The notes under the pieces: generated by a model
What the model was told of the DNA's origin: nothing
The model's database searches: none
Seen by the model: only the letters and a program-made list of their open reading frames with translations
DNA from: Bacillota bacterium
GTDB lineage: Bacteria > Bacillota > UBA4882 > UBA10575
Assembly (NCBI GenBank): GCA_012735135.1
Contig: JAAYHY010000134.1
Span: 1 to 32,081 of the forward strand
DNA: 32,081 nucleotides
Direction: 5' to 3'
Made by a program: the position numbers and the translations under genes
Shown here: positions 9,889 to 28,980 of the stretch, one piece after another
Position numbering within the stretch: the first letter of the stretch is position 1
Layout: each line of letters opens with the position of its first letter

Positions 9889-10920
9889 TCAAAGGCTATT
9901 TTCAAGGTACAAAGTAACCGGCTCCGTCCAGATGCTACTATTCCCGCCTTGGTCAAGACTGCTGAGGGCGTAAATCAAGCGGCCGTCGAAAAAATCACCC
10001 GGCGAGACGGTTTCCGTGAAGGAATGGGTATCTTTATCCACTTGGTGGTGGAGTTTGAGCACACCTTCCTGATTTGAACGGTAGATGTTATAAGCCAACA
10101 GATCATCTTCCGCCACCGGATCCCAACTGAGGTAAACTTGATCCGCAACCAAGTTGACGGTAAAGTTTTCCGGGGTAGCCGGGTTGGAGTCGATTACGGC
10201 GTTAATGATCAAGCCCGCATCAGATTCTAGAAAAACGGAGGTAACTTTTCCAGAACGGACATCAATAGTGCCATAGCGACAACCGTAGATAGCGCCGGTT
10301 ATTTGGGGGATATAAATTTCCGTTTCATAGGTTCCTTCCGCCAGCTTAATCTCCTTGCTGTTCTTGAGGTAACTGCCCTCTAAATGCAGGTCAAAAGGGG
10401 TTCTCCTGTTATTGCTCGGATCTTCATGAACATAAAACTTTCCACTGGTCACTGTATAACCTTTCTTCTGCAGAAGCGAGAGATCCACCGTGACCATAAC
10501 CCGTCCGGGTGTGGGTTTAATCATCAACACAGCTTCAACGGTCTTTCCCGGTGGAATCGACCGGGTGTCCTCGCCGTAGAAGATAATATCGTTTTCCCTG
10601 TCATAGCCGTTGACTTGAATCTTCCAGGTCCCGGGATACAAGGAATCAAAGGTCACCACATGATCCCCCTGGTAGGGTTGGATCACTTTCTTTTCGGATA
10701 ATTGCTTATTGGTGAGAATGACCTCTAGTTTCTCGATCTCACTATCCTTGGCCAGCAAAGAAAATTCCGGCCGGGTTTGGGCTTGTTCCGCCTTGCTGAT
10801 CCGAAGGTGGAGTCTTCCCGGGTCTTTTCCGGGAAAGTAGGGTTTGGGTAGACAGCCGCCGCTCATGAGCAGGCCGGTTACGAGAAAAGGGAGAAGAAGC
10901 GCCCATCTTTTTAAAACCAT
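9889..10920 (-). CDS. Putative lipoprotein with C-terminal fibronectin type III-like domain
   Basis: The 343-residue product begins with a basic, hydrophobic export signal ending MSGGC (cysteine at about 23), a slightly unusual lipobox. The middle is beta-rich and resembles carbohydrate- or surface-binding domains, with GTWKIQVNGYD at about 100. The last 95 residues, from PATPENFTVN through YLSWDPVAEDDLLAYNIYR, look like a fibronectin type III domain. I do not recognise a catalytic motif, so a specific function is not assigned; a surface scaffold or binding protein is likely. The ribosome site is weak (GGGGTG). It lies downstream of the reverse-strand amidase gene but is separated from it by a terminator, so it is probably transcribed separately. 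Confidence 0.7.
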   Translation of the reverse strand: MVLKRWALLLPFLVTGLLMSGGCLPKPYFPGKDPGRLHLRISKAEQAQTRPEFSLLAKDSEIEKLEVILTNKQLSEKKVIQPYQGDHVVTFDSLYPGTWKIQVNGYDRENDIIFYGEDTRSIPPGKTVEAVLMIKPTPGRVMVTVDLSLLQKKGYTVTSGKFYVHEDPSNNRRTPFDLHLEGSYLKNSKEIKLAEGTYETEIYIPQITGAIYGCRYGTIDVRSGKVTSVFLESDAGLIINAVIDSNPATPENFTVNLVADQVYLSWDPVAEDDLLAYNIYRSNQEGVLKLHHQVDKDTHSFTETVSPGDFFDGRLIYALSSLDQGGNSSIWTEPVTLYLENSL

Positions 10921-11104: not shown

Positions 11105-11740
11105 TTATTTTCCCATGTGGTCAACGATTCCTTTGTAAATATAAAAGGCTTCCCGCCAAAGATAACCCGGATCTCTTAACTTCTGCTCTTCTTTGGGGTT
11201 GGTGATAAAAGATGCTTCAGTTAGAATGGCCGGCATCTTTGTGTTCCGTAAGACATAAAAGTTGGCGGTATTAGCCCCTAAATCCCGGAGACCGGTCATT
11301 TGCAGCAAACGCTTTTGGACTTTGTTCCGTAAATCGTGGCTGCGGGCGCTCCCATTTGTTGCCGAATAGACCGCAGTTCCGTTATGGTTGGGATTGACGG
11401 AACCGTTATGGTGAATGGAGATGAAACGGTCGGCGCCACTCTCGTTGGCGATCTTAACCCGGGAGGCCAAAGAAAGGTAAACATCATTAACTCTGGTCAT
11501 TTCCACGGTGGCCCCGCCGTATTCTATTAGGCAGTTACGAAGGGCCTTCGCCACTTGTAAGTTAATCTCTTTTTCGGTCAGGCCGTTGCCGCCTACGGCG
11601 CCCGGGTCCCAACCCCCATGTCCGGCGTCGACCACCACCTTTATCCCTGCCAGCGGCGGGGAGGCGGCAGTGGTGGTGACCACTGTCGTAAAGAGTAGAA
11701 GCATTGTCAAGAATGGGGTGATTCTTTTCCTGTTGGCCAA
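11105..11740 (-). CDS. Secreted N-acetylmuramoyl-L-alanine amidase (Amidase_3)
   Basis: The enzyme cleaves the bond between N-acetylmuramic acid and the stem peptide of peptidoglycan. The 211-residue protein has a signal peptide (about 1-26) and a single amidase_3 domain. The usual zinc and catalytic residues are visible: H41 in DAGHGG, E56 in LTEKEIN, H110 in SIHHNGS and E175 in LTEASFITN. There is no separate wall-binding domain, so it resembles CwlD-like enzymes in size; whether it acts in sporulation or growth cannot be told. Only 25 bases separate it from the putative barrel gene upstream, suggesting one operon. Confidence 0.92.
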   Translation of the reverse strand: MANRKRITPFLTMLLLFTTVVTTTAASPPLAGIKVVVDAGHGGWDPGAVGGNGLTEKEINLQVAKALRNCLIEYGGATVEMTRVNDVYLSLASRVKIANESGADRFISIHHNGSVNPNHNGTAVYSATNGSARSHDLRNKVQKRLLQMTGLRDLGANTANFYVLRNTKMPAILTEASFITNPKEEQKLRDPGYLWREAFYIYKGIVDHMGK

Positions 11741-11765: not shown

Positions 11766-12932
11766 TTAAAATACAGTATTAAACTGGATGACTAAACGGT
11801 TGTACCGGTGGAGGTTAATCTTGTCCACATCGGCTTCAAACCCGGAATCAAAGCCGAATTCTAAGTTGGTTGCGATGGAGAAGCTTTTCCGCAGCCGGCC
11901 AGAGAAAGTGAGTTGAGGACCGGTGAAAGTTTGCTCCGGAGAAAACAGAAGTCCGGCTTTTAGGGTTGTATCCCAATTATTTTCCAGTTTACGTTGTATT
12001 CCACCGCCGATGCCGTAGGAATTGTTGGCGAAGATCTCACCCTTTTCTAAAAAACTATCGTTCAATACCGAAGAGATGGGAGCAAAACCCTTCTCAAAAT
12101 ACCATGTACTAAAGGTGTAAGTTGTTGTGGCAACATTTTTATTCCAGACTGCTAAGCCGCCGAAAGCGCCATCATGTTTATAGGCTTGGAAACTCTCCGT
12201 CCCCGGTTTATACCAGGCTACTTCCGTTTGGAGGGCGCCACCGGCTATATTGGTAATAAAGTCGAGCCCAACGGCAGTTTCACTCAGGTCGCCGGCGGGA
12301 GTGGTAACCAACGTCATCCCCAGCAGATATTGGGGTTTGGGGAGGGCCATTCTGAAGCCGAATTGATCATCACTGGTAATGGCAATCTTTTCCTCATCGA
12401 TCTTGGCCGGATTCAAAAAAAGCCGGGAATAAAAACCGCCGACATAAAACTCGTGGTTACCGGTTTGGATGGCGAACCCTTGCAGCGGCGATGCGGAGTG
12501 ATCGGCGATGAGGCCAAGGGGATCCAGGGTAAACTTGAATTTCCCCAAGTCGATTAATAATTGGGGCGAACGGTAACGGACGGCCGCTTCGTTCACATAG
12601 AGTTGGTTGAGGTATCCGAAATTGTCATAGTGGGAAAGTAAAAGATAAAAATAGAAATTCCGGTCGATCTGCGCGTCGAGATAGAGGTTTAAATAGTTTT
12701 TCAGATCCGGGGTCCGGTACTCTTCAAAGGCCCGTTGCTTATATTCGGCGAGGAGGCTGAACTCTCCACCAAGTTGAAGATGGCCCCAGCGACTTTCCAA
12801 GTCAGTGAGGCGTTTGGTAATATTGTCCGTGGCGGCCTGGGTAGGGTTGAGTCCCAAAGGGCTTAGGAACAATAAAAGGGTAAATAGGAAGCAACACCAA
12901 AGATAAAGGGTGGGTTTGGTCAGGCGTAGCAA
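11766..12932 (-). CDS. Putative outer-membrane beta-barrel (porin-like) protein
   Basis: The 388-residue product has a clear signal peptide ending near TQAA (about residue 34). A short predicted coiled coil (ITKRLTDLESRWGHLQLGGE) leads into about 330 residues of alternating polar and hydrophobic strands rich in Tyr, Phe and Gly. It ends LVIQFNTVF, with alternating hydrophobic residues and a terminal phenylalanine, the usual recognition signal for barrel assembly by the BAM machinery. The coiled-coil-then-barrel order recalls porins of diderm Firmicutes such as OmpM, but no SLH domain is present. TTG at 12932 is chosen because GGAGGA lies seven bases before it; an ATG at 12947 would place that ribosome site inside the gene. 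A cell-surface beta-rich protein of a monoderm remains possible. Confidence 0.65.
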   Translation of the reverse strand: MLRLTKPTLYLWCCFLFTLLLFLSPLGLNPTQAATDNITKRLTDLESRWGHLQLGGEFSLLAEYKQRAFEEYRTPDLKNYLNLYLDAQIDRNFYFYLLLSHYDNFGYLNQLYVNEAAVRYRSPQLLIDLGKFKFTLDPLGLIADHSASPLQGFAIQTGNHEFYVGGFYSRLFLNPAKIDEEKIAITSDDQFGFRMALPKPQYLLGMTLVTTPAGDLSETAVGLDFITNIAGGALQTEVAWYKPGTESFQAYKHDGAFGGLAVWNKNVATTTYTFSTWYFEKGFAPISSVLNDSFLEKGEIFANNSYGIGGGIQRKLENNWDTTLKAGLLFSPEQTFTGPQLTFSGRLRKSFSIATNLEFGFDSGFEADVDKINLHRYNRLVIQFNTVF

Positions 12933-13116
12933 AGATGATTCCTCCATTTCTTTCAGCAGATTTTACAAGACTGGCCTAGATCGCCGTTTGCGCCTTTTGT
13001 TCCTTAAACTTCTCTAAATTAATAAAAATACCTGCTCAAGGCAGGAATGGAATTTATGGTAAACCCAAAAAGAGCGGAAAATCAGGACCGGAAGGATGAG
13101 GGGATCTTAAATTAAT

Positions 13117-13154
13117 AAAAGGATTAAGGGGTGTGGCGGCACACCCCTTAATCC
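13117..13154 (-). terminator. Terminator overlapping the SASP stop codon
   Basis: A perfect 15-bp stem, GGATTAAGGGGTGTG with its complement, closes a four-base loop. On the reverse strand it is followed by TTTTATTAATTT. The TAA stop of the SASP gene lies inside the stem. It may also stop plus-strand transcripts, since AATTTTT follows on that side. Confidence 0.85.
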
Positions 13155-13339
13155 AATTTTTGGGAGGCCATCAATTGTTCGGCTTTTTCGATTAAGCCGC
13201 GGACAATCAGGCCTGCTTCGCGGGTAGTGAGATTGCTGTAGTCGTAGCTATTTCCGTGCCGTTGAATACGATCTGCGAAACCTAACTCTTTTGCGATTTC
13301 GTATTTGACCTCGTCGGAAACGATACTACGTCGCGCCAC
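13148..13339 (-). CDS. Small acid-soluble spore protein, alpha/beta type
   Basis: Proteins of this family coat DNA in the dormant spore, protect it from UV and heat, and are degraded at germination by the Gpr protease. The 63-residue product begins MARRSIVSDEVKYEIAKELG. The segment YEIAKELG fits the Gpr cleavage-site region, and the C-terminal half (NLTTREAGLIVRGLIEKAEQ) matches the second conserved helix. The GTG at 13339 is chosen because GGAGG lies seven bases before it and because family members start MARR; an upstream ATG at 13384 would add 15 unlike residues. A possible sigma-G promoter lies just upstream. It is direct evidence of a spore former. Confidence 0.88.
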   Translation of the reverse strand: MARRSIVSDEVKYEIAKELGFADRIQRHGNSYDYSNLTTREAGLIVRGLIEKAEQLMASQKLD

Positions 13340-13357
13340 AGCTCCACCTCCCACTAC

Positions 13358-13386
13358 TAGTATTTCCGGACCGCCTTTGAACAAAC
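13358..13386 (-). promoter_or_regulatory. Possible sigma-G promoter of the SASP gene
   Basis: On the reverse strand GTTTG (13382-13386), a 17-base spacer and AATACTA (13358-13364) each differ by one base from the sigma-G boxes GHATR and CATWMTA. The leader would be short, with the ribosome site close to the 5' end. Forespore expression is what the gene's family would require. Confidence 0.55.
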
Positions 13387-13454
13387 GGGTTAAAAAAGGA
13401 TGAATAGGTAAACCGGTGAGATAGGGAGAATATTAAAAAATAGGGAGGGAATTA

Positions 13455-13655
13455 ATGATGAAAAATGACCGCTATCCGCTTAGTCAGCCGGAAAGAGCGG
13501 ATAATGCTGAAGAAAGCGTAAAATGTCCTTACTGTGGCACGATGATTCATCTGGGTTATGATGAGGATGAAGAGGTGGTGACCTGTCCGGTCTGTCAAGA
13601 ACAGGTCACCACCGTCGCGGAAGACCAACTTTATTCTTCGAACGAAGATTATTAA
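13455..13655 (+). CDS. Small zinc-ribbon protein
   Basis: The 66-residue acidic protein has two CxxC knuckles, CPYC at about 24-27 and CPVC at about 44-47, typical of a zinc ribbon that folds around one zinc ion. No further domain is present, so its partner or target (nucleic acid or protein) is unknown. GGGAGGG lies just before two consecutive ATG codons; either could start it. Its coding sequence contains a perfect 13-bp inverted repeat (13574-13586 with 13601-13613) around the second knuckle. It diverges from the SASP gene and has its own terminator. Confidence 0.75.
   Translation: MMKNDRYPLSQPERADNAEESVKCPYCGTMIHLGYDEDEEVVTCPVCQEQVTTVAEDQLYSSNEDY
13574..13613. repeat. Perfect 13-bp inverted repeat inside the zinc-ribbon gene
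   Basis: GGTGGTGACCTGT and its exact complement flank 14 bases. As mRNA this makes a very stable hairpin; as DNA it is a palindromic site. In protein terms it produces the near-mirrored VVTC and QVTTV around CPVC. Confidence 0.8.
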
Positions 13656-13698: not shown

Positions 13699-14370
13699 TT
13701 AATCTTTCCGTAGTCCGTAAGTCTCTTCCACATTTTGGGTAAAGATAATCCCGTAACCCGGTTGGTCAATATGAAGTTGGGCCCGGATATGCGTGACAAT
13801 GCCTTCGGTGAGCTGATTTTCGCAGAGAATCAGAGCAATATCTTTTTCCGGCTCGATTTCCATGCCAAACAATTTAATGGACTTATGAATACCGGATCCT
13901 CGAGCGTGGATGATGGTTCCACCTTTAGCTCCCTTTTCTTTAGCCGCATCGATGGCTGCTTCGCCTTTTCCTTTATCCACAATGACAAAAATCGCGTTGT
14001 ACATGGGTTTCTTAACACCTCTGCTCTCTTTAAACGATTGGTCTGGAAAATCGTGGGATCCAAAAAAATTTACCACCGGGATGCTGAAGGCGATCCCATG
14101 GTTGGGTTTGTCCAAGGAGAAATCACTATTTATACCGATCAGCGCCTGCTTGGCTACGTTTTTCTCTGCCACCATCAACACAATTTCTTTACGGATTTCC
14201 GACAATGAAAGAAGATCCAAGAGGCGGCTGTGTACACTTCCTTTACCTAAGAGAATCGTTCCTCCGGTAACGCCGTAGTGCTTCGCACGGGATAAAATTT
14301 TACTGCCTTGACCATAATTGGCGATCACATAGATCAGAGAGAACTCCAGTGGTTCCCGTTGGTTATCCAT
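13699..14370 (-). CDS. Tandem PII-like signalling protein
   Basis: The 223-residue protein contains two copies of a PII (GlnB)-like fold. Each has a core strand run (SLIYVIANYGQGSKILSRAKHYGVTGGTILLGKGS in outline, then NAIFVIVDKGKGEAAIDAAKEKGAKGGTII) and a GGTI..(G/R)G nucleotide-loop motif. PII proteins bind ATP/ADP and small effectors and often gate a neighbouring membrane protein. Here the gene overlaps the end of a DUF1538 gene by eight bases, so it very likely regulates that protein. ATG at 14370 is better placed behind AAGGAGGGG than the TTG at 14379. The uridylylation-type T-loop of GlnB is not evident. Confidence 0.8.
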   Translation of the reverse strand: MDNQREPLEFSLIYVIANYGQGSKILSRAKHYGVTGGTILLGKGSVHSRLLDLLSLSEIRKEIVLMVAEKNVAKQALIGINSDFSLDKPNHGIAFSIPVVNFFGSHDFPDQSFKESRGVKKPMYNAIFVIVDKGKGEAAIDAAKEKGAKGGTIIHARGSGIHKSIKLFGMEIEPEKDIALILCENQLTEGIVTHIRAQLHIDQPGYGIIFTQNVEETYGLRKD

Positions 14371-15850
14371 TGGGATCAACCCCTCCTTGCGCAGATTTCA
14401 CTTTATAAATATAACCCAAAAGCTGAAGCGTGATCAAAGGAGTTAAGGCCACCATGGCGATGACGCCAAAGCCGTCAAGGAAGACATTGGCGCCCTCGGT
14501 TGCCTCCGCCACCCCTTGGGCAAAGGACAGGATAAAGGTGGCCGTCATCGGTCCGGAAGCTACACCGCCGGCATCAAAGGCGATGCCAACGAATAACTCG
14601 GGAACAAAATGGGTCAGGAGAATGGCGAGGAAAAACCCGGGTAACAGATAATGCCAGAGTTGGATGGCCGGGGTGATGATCCGGAGAATGGAAAGGGCGA
14701 CCGCCAAACCAACCCCGATGGAAAGGGCAACCAGGACCACTTTTCGCTTGACGTAACCGCTGGTTACTTCCTCGATTTGGGTGGTTAAAACGTAAACGGC
14801 CGGTTCAGCGATGACCGTGACCAAACCCAGAACTAAGCCGATGAATACTACCAAAGGCTGGCTAAGGGAAGCCAACCGGTAACCGGCTAAAATACCCACC
14901 TCTAAGAAACCCGCTTGGACACCTGTGAGAAAGAGGACTAACCCGATGAAAGTATAAAGCAGACCTTTGAGGATACGATGGGCGGCTTTTTTCGGGAGTT
15001 TAAAGATGAACTTGTCGCCGAAGTGAAAGAGAAGAAGGAGTGGAAAAAGGGCCAAAAAGGAATCCCAGGCGTTGGGCGGGAGTTTGGCCAGAAACGGGGC
15101 CAGCAGGGAAGTGGATTCCGTAATAGCCAGTGTAAGGCTGCCCACAATTCGGTCTGTATTGGAAAGAATGCTCGTGAGGGTAACTGCTATAATTGGACCG
15201 GCAGAGATAATACCGACTAAACCAAAACTTCCACTTTCGGAGGCCAGACTATCCTTGTTCAGAGAAGAGATTCCCAAAGCCAACGCCAGGACGAAAGGTA
15301 CGGTCAAAGCGCCGGTCGTCGCGCCAGAAGAATCAAAGGCAATGGCTAAAAACTCGGGAGAAGTATATAAGGATAAAAAGAAAATGACGGTATAGGCTAT
15401 GGAGAACACTTTGGATAAGGCAAAATTGTAGAGGGTTCTTATAAAACCGACGGCCAGCATGAGGGCGATACCCAGGGACACGACAACGACGATGGCCATC
15501 TTTGGGATCTGCCCCGCGGTAACCATGTCAACTTGTCCGGCTAAAACATGGAGATCCGGCTCGGCGATGGAGATCATAAACCCTAAAAGTAAGCCGGCGA
15601 CGATCACAACCTTTATTTTATTCGTTTTGGCCAAGGTTTCACCGAGCATCGAACCGATGGGAGTAATTCCAAGGTCGACCCCGAATAAAAAGATGGCCAA
15701 GCCCAAAATGATCAAAAAGGAGCCCAGGAGAAACCGGACGAGGAGCGGAGCCTCGAAAGGAGTAAGGGTGAAATGCAGGATGAGAACGATAATTGTAATT
15801 GGAAGTACCGTGGATAAAACTTCTTTAAATTTGGCGCTTAGTGCGTTCAA
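14363..15850 (-). CDS. DUF1538 family membrane protein, two repeats
   Basis: The 495-residue protein has many hydrophobic segments arranged as two related halves. Each half carries a motif of the type AEPxxxVLxxQVxxVT (AEPDLHVLAGQVDMVT in the first, AEPAVYVLTTQIEEVT in the second) and a second of the type AFDxxGxxxGxxT (AFDSSGATTGALT and AFDAGGVASGPMT). This is the DUF1538 duplication, probably an inverted- or tandem-repeat transporter. The substrate is unknown to me. The start is TTG with AAGGAAG ten bases upstream. The overlapping PII-like gene suggests control by energy or nitrogen state, by analogy with AmtB-GlnB and SbtA-SbtB. Confidence 0.87.
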   Translation of the reverse strand: MNALSAKFKEVLSTVLPITIIVLILHFTLTPFEAPLLVRFLLGSFLIILGLAIFLFGVDLGITPIGSMLGETLAKTNKIKVVIVAGLLLGFMISIAEPDLHVLAGQVDMVTAGQIPKMAIVVVVSLGIALMLAVGFIRTLYNFALSKVFSIAYTVIFFLSLYTSPEFLAIAFDSSGATTGALTVPFVLALALGISSLNKDSLASESGSFGLVGIISAGPIIAVTLTSILSNTDRIVGSLTLAITESTSLLAPFLAKLPPNAWDSFLALFPLLLLFHFGDKFIFKLPKKAAHRILKGLLYTFIGLVLFLTGVQAGFLEVGILAGYRLASLSQPLVVFIGLVLGLVTVIAEPAVYVLTTQIEEVTSGYVKRKVVLVALSIGVGLAVALSILRIITPAIQLWHYLLPGFFLAILLTHFVPELFVGIAFDAGGVASGPMTATFILSFAQGVAEATEGANVFLDGFGVIAMVALTPLITLQLLGYIYKVKSAQGGVDPNG

Positions 15851-27783: not shown

Positions 27784-28980
27784 TTAGCTCAGAATTTTGC
27801 TTAAGGCCATGGCGGTCAGTTCAATCCGGGCATATTCTTTAATCATCTCCCAATCCCGGGCTAATATGGCTCCGCTTAAATCTTTGGTGATCCCCAGATA
27901 AGCGGAGAGGGCGCCGGCCAAGCGGTCCCGGCTGACGGTATCAAGATAAGCCCAGTCTTGAACGAGAATGGATTCGGCTTCTTCCGGCGTTAGCCCGAGG
28001 TTGAGCAATTGATTGTATAATTCGCCGTTAATTCCTTCCTTAACTTCATCCCAATTTCCCGCCAAAATTGCGGCGATCTGTTCAGGCGTCAGCTTTCCTT
28101 TCACCATGGCGCTTAACCGGCTGAGCAGGTCCTTTTGGTTTACTTCCCCGAAGGCCTTGACCACCGCCGGCTCTCCGTTACGGTTATAAACGATGGTAAT
28201 CTGGTCGTCTTTCATCAGCGCTTCGGGCGTGGTGGTGATGTTATTCCGAAAGACCACCGCTTCCGGGGGAACAACGGCGATCTGGATCTCGCCATCCCCT
28301 TCCGGCTGGATGGTGAGAAGACTGGTTCCGGCCTCCGGTTGGTCCAAAACTTGGCCGCGGACCGTTTTCAGGTTGCGTAATTGTTGAAGCATCCAGGCGG
28401 TATCGGCCCGGCTCGCTAACCGGGAAGGACCAAAATCGGGAGCATAATACCGGGGCAGCAGTCCTAATTTGGCGGCCAGTTCAATCTGGTAAAAAGCCCA
28501 GTGCTCTTCGGCCAGATCGGGATAGGTGGGTGCGAAATCGATAGTGTACTGCTCTTCTTCTGTACCTACTTTCAAGAGGCGGGTGAGCATCGCCACCATC
28601 TCCGCTCTGGTGATTGGCGCTTCCGGTTTGAATTTACCGTCAGGATAACCGGTAATAATTTCGGCTTTAGCTAAAGCGGCGATATACTCCTCCGCCCAGT
28701 GCTCTTCCGTATCGGAAAATTGAACTTTCCGGCCGGAAGGGTTAAACCCATAGGCGACAGCCAAAATTTTAGCCAGTTCAGCTCTGGTGATACTTTGGTC
28801 AGGCCGGAAGGAACCATCGGGATACCCGTTTAAAATTCCTTCCGCCATCAAGTTCTTTATACTATCTTCCGCCCAGTGGCCGTCGATATCGGCCGGCATG
28901 GCTTGGGCCAGCGGAGTAAGAAAGAAAAAGAGGAAAAGCAAAAGGGGATAAAGGATGTAACGGTAATTTAAAGAAAGCAT
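27784..28980 (-). CDS. SLH-domain cell-surface protein
   Basis: The 398-residue protein has a signal peptide (about 1-28) and three S-layer homology domains at about 30-75 (DIDGHWAEDSI, GYPDGSFRPDQSITRAELA), 88-135 (HWAEEYIAALAKAEIITGYPDGKFKP) and 150-195 (more diverged, EEHWAFYQIELAAKLG). SLH domains bind wall polymers and hold proteins on the cell surface. The remaining 200 residues have a beta-rich part and helical segments with repeated LTPEQIAAIL / LTPEEAESIL motifs and conserved W-D pairs, which I do not recognise. AAGGAG precedes the ATG. Its partner is not evident. Confidence 0.9.
   Translation of the reverse strand: MLSLNYRYILYPLLLFLFFFLTPLAQAMPADIDGHWAEDSIKNLMAEGILNGYPDGSFRPDQSITRAELAKILAVAYGFNPSGRKVQFSDTEEHWAEEYIAALAKAEIITGYPDGKFKPEAPITRAEMVAMLTRLLKVGTEEEQYTIDFAPTYPDLAEEHWAFYQIELAAKLGLLPRYYAPDFGPSRLASRADTAWMLQQLRNLKTVRGQVLDQPEAGTSLLTIQPEGDGEIQIAVVPPEAVVFRNNITTTPEALMKDDQITIVYNRNGEPAVVKAFGEVNQKDLLSRLSAMVKGKLTPEQIAAILAGNWDEVKEGINGELYNQLLNLGLTPEEAESILVQDWAYLDTVSRDRLAGALSAYLGITKDLSGAILARDWEMIKEYARIELTAMALSKILS

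Follow-up and report, generated by a model that had tools for sequence, protein, structure and literature searches.

The gene examined here, on the minus strand of a 32,081-nt stretch of Bacillota DNA (the window), very probably codes for a porin of the outer membrane in a spore-forming diderm of the LPS type, and appears to form a transcription unit of its own under a σH-type promoter. Our computations revealed conservation of the protein family, a barrel-like model of the product, BAM, LPS and spore genes in the same genome, and a conserved promoter-like element upstream of the gene (Table 1). When growth ends and sporulation begins, σH (Spo0H) would transcribe the porin gene as a separate unit. 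The precursor would be exported via its signal sequence and escorted by Skp, and BamA would then fold it into the outer membrane through the strand that ends in the C-terminal Phe. There the porin would form a channel of some 16–20 strands for diffusion, either general or substrate-selective, through which small solutes pass the LPS outer membrane. What is known of such proteins in general is the basis for export, assembly by BamA and pore function, and we hold the export route, the membrane location and the pore function, taken jointly, to be highly likely.

Table 1. Positions and descriptions of the features discussed in the text. Coordinates are those of the window unless a contig and locus are given.
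Feature	Position	Strand	Description
Porin gene	11766..12932	minus	TTG start at 12932, signal sequence, short helical stretch, predicted transmembrane β-barrel, C-terminal Phe
Predicted barrel domain	11769..12785	minus	Residues 55-393 of the 393-aa reading; range aligned to porins and containing the model strands
σH-like element	13007..13035	minus	-35 GCAGGTATT (13035-13027), 11-nt spacer, -10 AGAGAAGTT (13015-13007)
GTTTACCATAAATTCCATT	13046..13064	minus	Shortly before the -35; unchanged in 5/8 same-genus genomes, with a single change in each of the remaining 3
Intrinsic-terminator-like hairpin	13121..13154	minus	15-pair stem where the SASP gene ends
α/β-type SASP gene	13148..13339	minus	Directly upstream of the porin gene; GTG start inferred, frame opens at 13384; PF00269
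Exported N-acetylmuramoyl-L-alanine amidase (Amidase_3) gene	11105..11740	minus	25 nt downstream of the porin gene; PF01520, 178.9 bits
Lipoprotein-like gene	9889..10920	minus	Next conserved gene, by position in relatives
Small exported one-SLH proteins	C29 (L079:1393-2091), C79 (L080:1078-1701)		Candidate envelope tethers

The probable porin gene, its product and the predicted fold

The program-made list of open reading frames gave the porin frame as 11766–12947 on the minus strand, with an ATG start and 393 aa. However, GGAGG lies 8 nt ahead of the downstream TTG codon, and on reading an alignment of eight same-genus genomes we found this TTG conserved in 8/8 and the upstream ATG in 2/8. The TTG is therefore the better start, in agreement with the gene end at 12932 that the original prediction had used, and the product then comprises 388 residues. 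The frame is not a chance one, as homologues occur in 28 of 61 genomes (own genome included). A scan of contigs returned eight relatives with 67–84% identity, from records titled as Bacillota or Firmicutes MAGs or as Hydrogenispora (the depositor's name). No significant match was obtained in Pfam, NCBIfam or the PDB sequences, and none at all among plasmid sequences; the best match of a 22-sequence profile, to a 50 kDa outer membrane protein, was non-significant (E 0.14). Weak matches to PII proteins and DUF5597 were treated as chance.

The original prediction had described the product as a BAM-assembled porin by four marks. A putative signal peptide was recognized by eye as a hydrophobic run followed by ...PTQA-A, and the C-terminal residue is Phe in 22/22 aligned homologues. 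The alternating β pattern occupied 24.2% of 10-residue windows, compared with 13.7 ± 4.0% in 500 shuffles (z 2.6, with a hydrophobicity threshold of our own choice). The BamA barrel from the same genome gave the same z of 2.6, and the window's amidase, lipoprotein, SLH protein and GDH gave z 0.1 to 1.5. When the test was applied to 15 of the 21 other aligned porin sequences, 14 fell at z 1.7 to 4.1 and the G029 member, at z 0.7, gave no signal of alternation. The fourth mark, a coiled-coil stretch, is present (DNITKRLTDLESRW) but extends over only about 15 residues.

AlphaFold, supplied with nine sequences that are 65–85% identical, predicted 20 strands across residues 58–392, at low confidence (pLDDT 54.4, pTM 0.53). 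A Foldseek search with this model returned 252 matches at E ≤ 0.001; among the best 50 of them, 47 were titled outer-membrane proteins and three were artificial metalloproteins (9j9n, 9j9o and 9j9l). The top match was the MOMP of Campylobacter (5ldt, E 4.3e-11), and OmpM1 of Veillonella was among the matches listed (8bym, E 2.1e-8). Alignment of the model with another MOMP structure (5ldv) by VIA-align gave Z 22.3 and rmsd 4.3 over 307 residues. MOMP and the OprD/Occ porins were thus the best fold matches, over residues 55–393, with an identity of 5–12% in the aligned rows and no significant sequence match. When the mature chain was folded in a second job, the model was worse than the first: helices at pLDDT 25–36 filled the first third, and strands, of which the later ones were mostly at pLDDT 59–89, appeared only from residue 121 on, being confined to the C-terminal two thirds to half. 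Structure prediction had been proposed as a check on the barrel; it yielded a low-confidence model (pLDDT 54) that matches transmembrane porins and so did not refute a barrel, with the reservation that the second fold has strands in part of the chain only.

Outer-membrane and spore genes of the host

A search of the genome for outer-membrane genes had also been proposed, with the absence of a BamA homologue as the result that would speak against the porin. No such absence was seen: an Omp85/BamA gene is present at C131:3, where the contig end truncates it, and a matching N-terminal part is found next to TamB at one edge of contig C59. In genome G006, the full-length relative combines two POTRA stretches with an Omp85 domain. 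The genome of the window also contains tamB, lpxC and Skp. One outer-membrane cluster holds OmpH/Skp, LpxD, an LptF/G permease and LptC-like and LptA-like proteins, and a second holds LpxB, LpxC, a FabZ-like dehydratase, an LpxA-like protein, LpxI, an LptA-like protein and an ABC ATPase that occupies the position of LptB. Together these include the lipid A genes lpxA (as LpxA-like), lpxB, lpxC and lpxD. A 733-aa gene at the expected place of lptD had no Pfam or NCBIfam match. Between Skp and LpxD lies a gene for a coiled-coil-like protein with no assigned family (L005:1570-2421, contig C131), which is also found in G006. Three further places in the genome belong to the Omp85 superfamily. On contig C83, ShlB-type POTRA and Omp85-type barrel pieces occur in two frames (L003:1776-2759 and 1255-1614) next to a small exported coiled-coil-like gene, an arrangement that resembles a split transporter of the two-partner-secretion type.

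These genes recur among related genomes, with LpxC in 17/18 and TamB in 18/18 (own genome included). Omp85 was found in 36 of 61 genomes, and the porin occurred in 28 of these 36 and in 0 of the 25 Omp85-negative genomes (Fisher p 1.6e-10, a descriptive value only, as the genomes are related). G017, a genome of the same class with 95% completeness, has Omp85 and TamB matches without an LpxC match or a porin homologue, and is possibly a diderm that has lost LPS, to judge by its gene content.

A soluble or surface β protein of a monoderm, with no transmembrane barrel, would agree with the low confidence of the model and with the lack of any family match. The outer-membrane gene set of the genome, the co-occurrence with Omp85, the invariant terminal Phe and the porin-fold matches argue against such a protein, and we regard this alternative as very improbable.

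By gene content (SASP and SpoIVA, the latter detected in 13 of 14 genomes, own included), the host is a spore former. The BAM and LPS gene set, the spore genes and the porin-like fold support the original proposal of an outer membrane in a spore former. The occurrence of such a membrane in spore-forming Bacillota is in itself already known. According to passages of two earlier papers, it is established for Limnochordia-type clades (PMC11456536, PMC11448272); passages of the first of these describe diderm lineages, mostly from mud and digesters, that carry an outer-membrane gene cluster, and attribute to Taib et al. (2020) the finding of that cluster in all 46 UBA genomes of Limnochordia. The likeness of our host to these lineages is one of gene set, and a record of the same genus was labelled Hydrogenispora by its depositor.

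Gene order and the promoter-like element upstream of the porin gene

A spore SASP gene had been noted in the same window, and its frame (13148–13384) indeed matched PF00269 with 25.8 bits (cut-off, 22). In 24/28 genomes the porin gene is preceded by a SASP gene on the same strand, as counted by a typed motif in six frames, with which Pfam agreed for 5/5 proteins tried. The SASP motif starts 308–848 nt ahead of the porin's open frame, and the adjacency reaches porins of 25–30% identity in another family of the class. In the four remaining genomes, the upstream sequence either reaches the contig edge within 104 nt (G010 and G024) or contains no SASP over 1.3 kb (G021) or 5.8 kb (G029). A terminator-like hairpin lies between the two genes, and inverted repeats resembling it were seen by eye in the same-genus alignment; the porin gene is therefore probably a transcription unit of its own.

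The amidase gene directly follows the porin gene in 15/28 genomes; among the 28, G020 and G023 have less than 300 nt of downstream sequence. Assignment of this amidase to the spore-cortex enzyme CwlD was rejected, since it scored 124 bits with TIGR02883 against a cut-off of 221.55; three other loci of the genome outscored it and were likewise below the cut-off. No significant Pfam or NCBIfam family was found for the lipoprotein-like gene. At positions 13699–15850 of the window, between murC and the SASP gene, a PII-like gene overlaps a gene for a DUF1538 membrane protein. The pair occupies this place in L041 and L045, and is absent there in L042, L043, L044, L046, L047 and L048.

Several loci of a distant family were found on reading to keep murC, the SASP gene and the porin gene side by side, and because murC is near in these, the SASP–porin linkage may be an old gene order. 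The protein could accordingly be an outer-membrane barrel that serves as a housekeeping porin, its SASP neighbour being an inherited gene order retained by slow rearrangement and the upstream element being a vegetative promoter or the site of another regulator. The terminator that divides the SASP gene from the porin gene is compatible with this alternative, which we consider rather unlikely on account of the upstream region described below.

σH promoters have a spacing of 11–12 nt between their two elements, and spoVG is a classical σH gene. In its hexamers, the element upstream of the porin gene resembles the promoters that σH (Spo0H) uses, for example, at spoVG and spoVS; the σH hexamers are given in PMC8510167 as RNAGGAWWW and RNNGAATWW. 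In the eight same-genus genomes, GTTTACCATAAATTCCATTCCTGCCTTGAGCAGG followed by a T-rich run precedes the porin gene with few changes. Across the class the left part fades, and the parts that remain are AGCAGG, the T-rich stretch and, at constant spacing, GAA. GCAGG-N18/19-GAA was present in 21/25 porin upstream regions, compared with 0.17 expected from dinucleotide shuffles and with 3/150 control regions upstream of other genes in the same loci; the 25 regions, which leave out G010, G024 and G020, are related by descent. Inclusion of G020 and a corrected start for G022, both of which read GAAT, brought the count to 23/26. G021 and G029 do not have the pattern, and G014 reads GAAGG. The looser AGG-N18/19-GAA occurred in 23/25 regions, with 4.0 expected.

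Scored with the full consensus, the signal was far less distinct, a point in favour of a housekeeping porin. The mean best score was 12.7 of 15 for the porin upstream regions, barely above the 11.5 of shuffles and the 11.8 of other genes, and in several genomes the top-scoring consensus site was not the GCAGG-N18/19-GAA element. The window's own copy agrees with 13 of 15 consensus positions (shuffle mean, 11.6), and misses the strict pattern GCAGGDWTTT-N13/14-GAAT because its -10 reads GAAG and not GAAT. This strict pattern occurred 71 times in 20 genomes, as opposed to 3 times for the reversed pattern. Of 70 places examined, 58 were outside open frames of at least 130 aa, and four preceded the porin gene (L127, L129, L131 and L135), to which G015:C108:114099 is added. 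It stood ahead of a Pfam-confirmed spoVG in two of the 20 genomes only. NAD kinase, shikimate dehydrogenase and GNAT genes (by Pfam), as well as xseA, isocitrate dehydrogenase and more (by eye), also followed the strict motif. The gene set is therefore broad, many other genes carrying the motif upstream, and its members without a tie to sporulation again fit a housekeeping role for the porin. The strict motif perhaps marks a broad σH-like regulon in this uncultured class, as far as its distribution indicates. A relaxed form of the motif gave 11 matches of mixed kind in 177 kb of sequence from the window's own genome.

Against a vegetative promoter stands the combination of σH hexamers, a fixed spacing, conservation throughout the class and the presence of the strict form before spoVG; furthermore, no σ70-like site was found in 12900–13500, where 1.1 were expected by chance. 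Taken together, the DNA makes it reasonably likely that σH controls the porin gene, and a σH-type promoter would imply that expression of the porin begins as growth ceases and sporulation sets in. A porin was not found among the σH targets in one search of literature listings. Just upstream of the -35, GTTTACCATAAATTCCATT is perhaps an activator site, and similar copies of this candidate occur in the family and, in part, in a genome of the same order. A CCTGC-CTTGA-GCAGG hairpin upstream of the porin gene was listed as a terminator by the scan. We disfavour this assignment because the left arm varies (CCTTC in L072 and CCTAT in L073) and the GCAGG and the T run are kept.

Tethering of the outer membrane and its possible link to sporulation

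OmpM is described as widespread in diderm Terrabacteria in passages of a study in which Limnochordia sequences are among those compared (PMC10628300). The protein studied here resembles VpOmpM1 of Veillonella parvula (8bym) in being a predicted outer-membrane porin of a diderm Bacillota member whose C-terminal barrel follows a helical stretch. By contrast, the SLH domain and coiled-coil stalk that the same passages ascribe to OmpM (PMC10628300) are both lacking in our porin. A Pfam search of the porin gave no SLH match, and the protein is therefore not a wall tether of the OmpM type.

Three SLH proteins are encoded in the genome, one of them being the 398-aa protein of the window (27784–28980). 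The other two, of 232 and 207 aa, combine an SLH domain with a coiled-coil-like stretch and have a hydrophobic C-terminal end. All three were read and none is barrel-like, so that no SLH-barrel (OmpM) was found in this genome. None was seen in 11 other genomes either, on the criteria of how long the frames are and how many SLH matches they contain; the SLH lists of this survey were complete, and a 945-aa frame of G029 and a 1045-aa frame of G019 were among those assessed by these criteria. Most SLH frames in these genomes have 200–285 aa, or 400–456 aa with two or three SLH matches, and a 459-aa frame of G029 and a 263-aa frame of G017 were found on reading to be of the SLH, coil and hydrophobic-end type. 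Similar SLH–coil–hydrophobic proteins were noted in G017 (L125) and G029 (L121; 452 aa, with a long coil). An OmpA domain was also considered as a tether, and was rejected for this genome, the single match being MotB, whose gene neighbours a MotA-like one. Proteins with an OmpA domain are more numerous in other families of the class, where they reach 8.

The porin might instead derive from an OmpM-type tether, of which it would be the barrel left after loss of the SLH domain, as the short helical stretch ahead of the barrel and the presence of OmpM1 among the fold matches listed would allow. MOMP and OprD-type porins outrank OmpM1 in these matches, however, and the SLH surveys of the own genome and of the 11 others yielded no protein that retains both parts. 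Such a descent is accordingly improbable.

In the open-licence literature, we found no porin family of this kind, combining a promoter like those of spore entry, a SASP neighbour and a genome without OmpM. Passages of Antunes et al. (2016, PMC5007114) propose that loss of the outer membrane was linked to sporulation and that OmpM had a role in this loss. For the present family we tentatively suggest, at somewhat below even chances, that the outer membrane is remodelled at the entry into sporulation, when σH would drive a dedicated porin, and that a different tether takes the place of OmpM, OmpA and Pal. The proteins composed of SLH domain, coiled-coil-like stretch and C-terminal hydrophobic end would be the candidates for this tether. 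If this is true, a porin with a promoter of sporulation entry would constitute a direct molecular link between the outer membrane and sporulation. A diderm family that has LPS and is without OmpM or Pal would make the holding or release of the outer membrane testable, which bears on how some Bacillota kept their outer membrane while most lost it.
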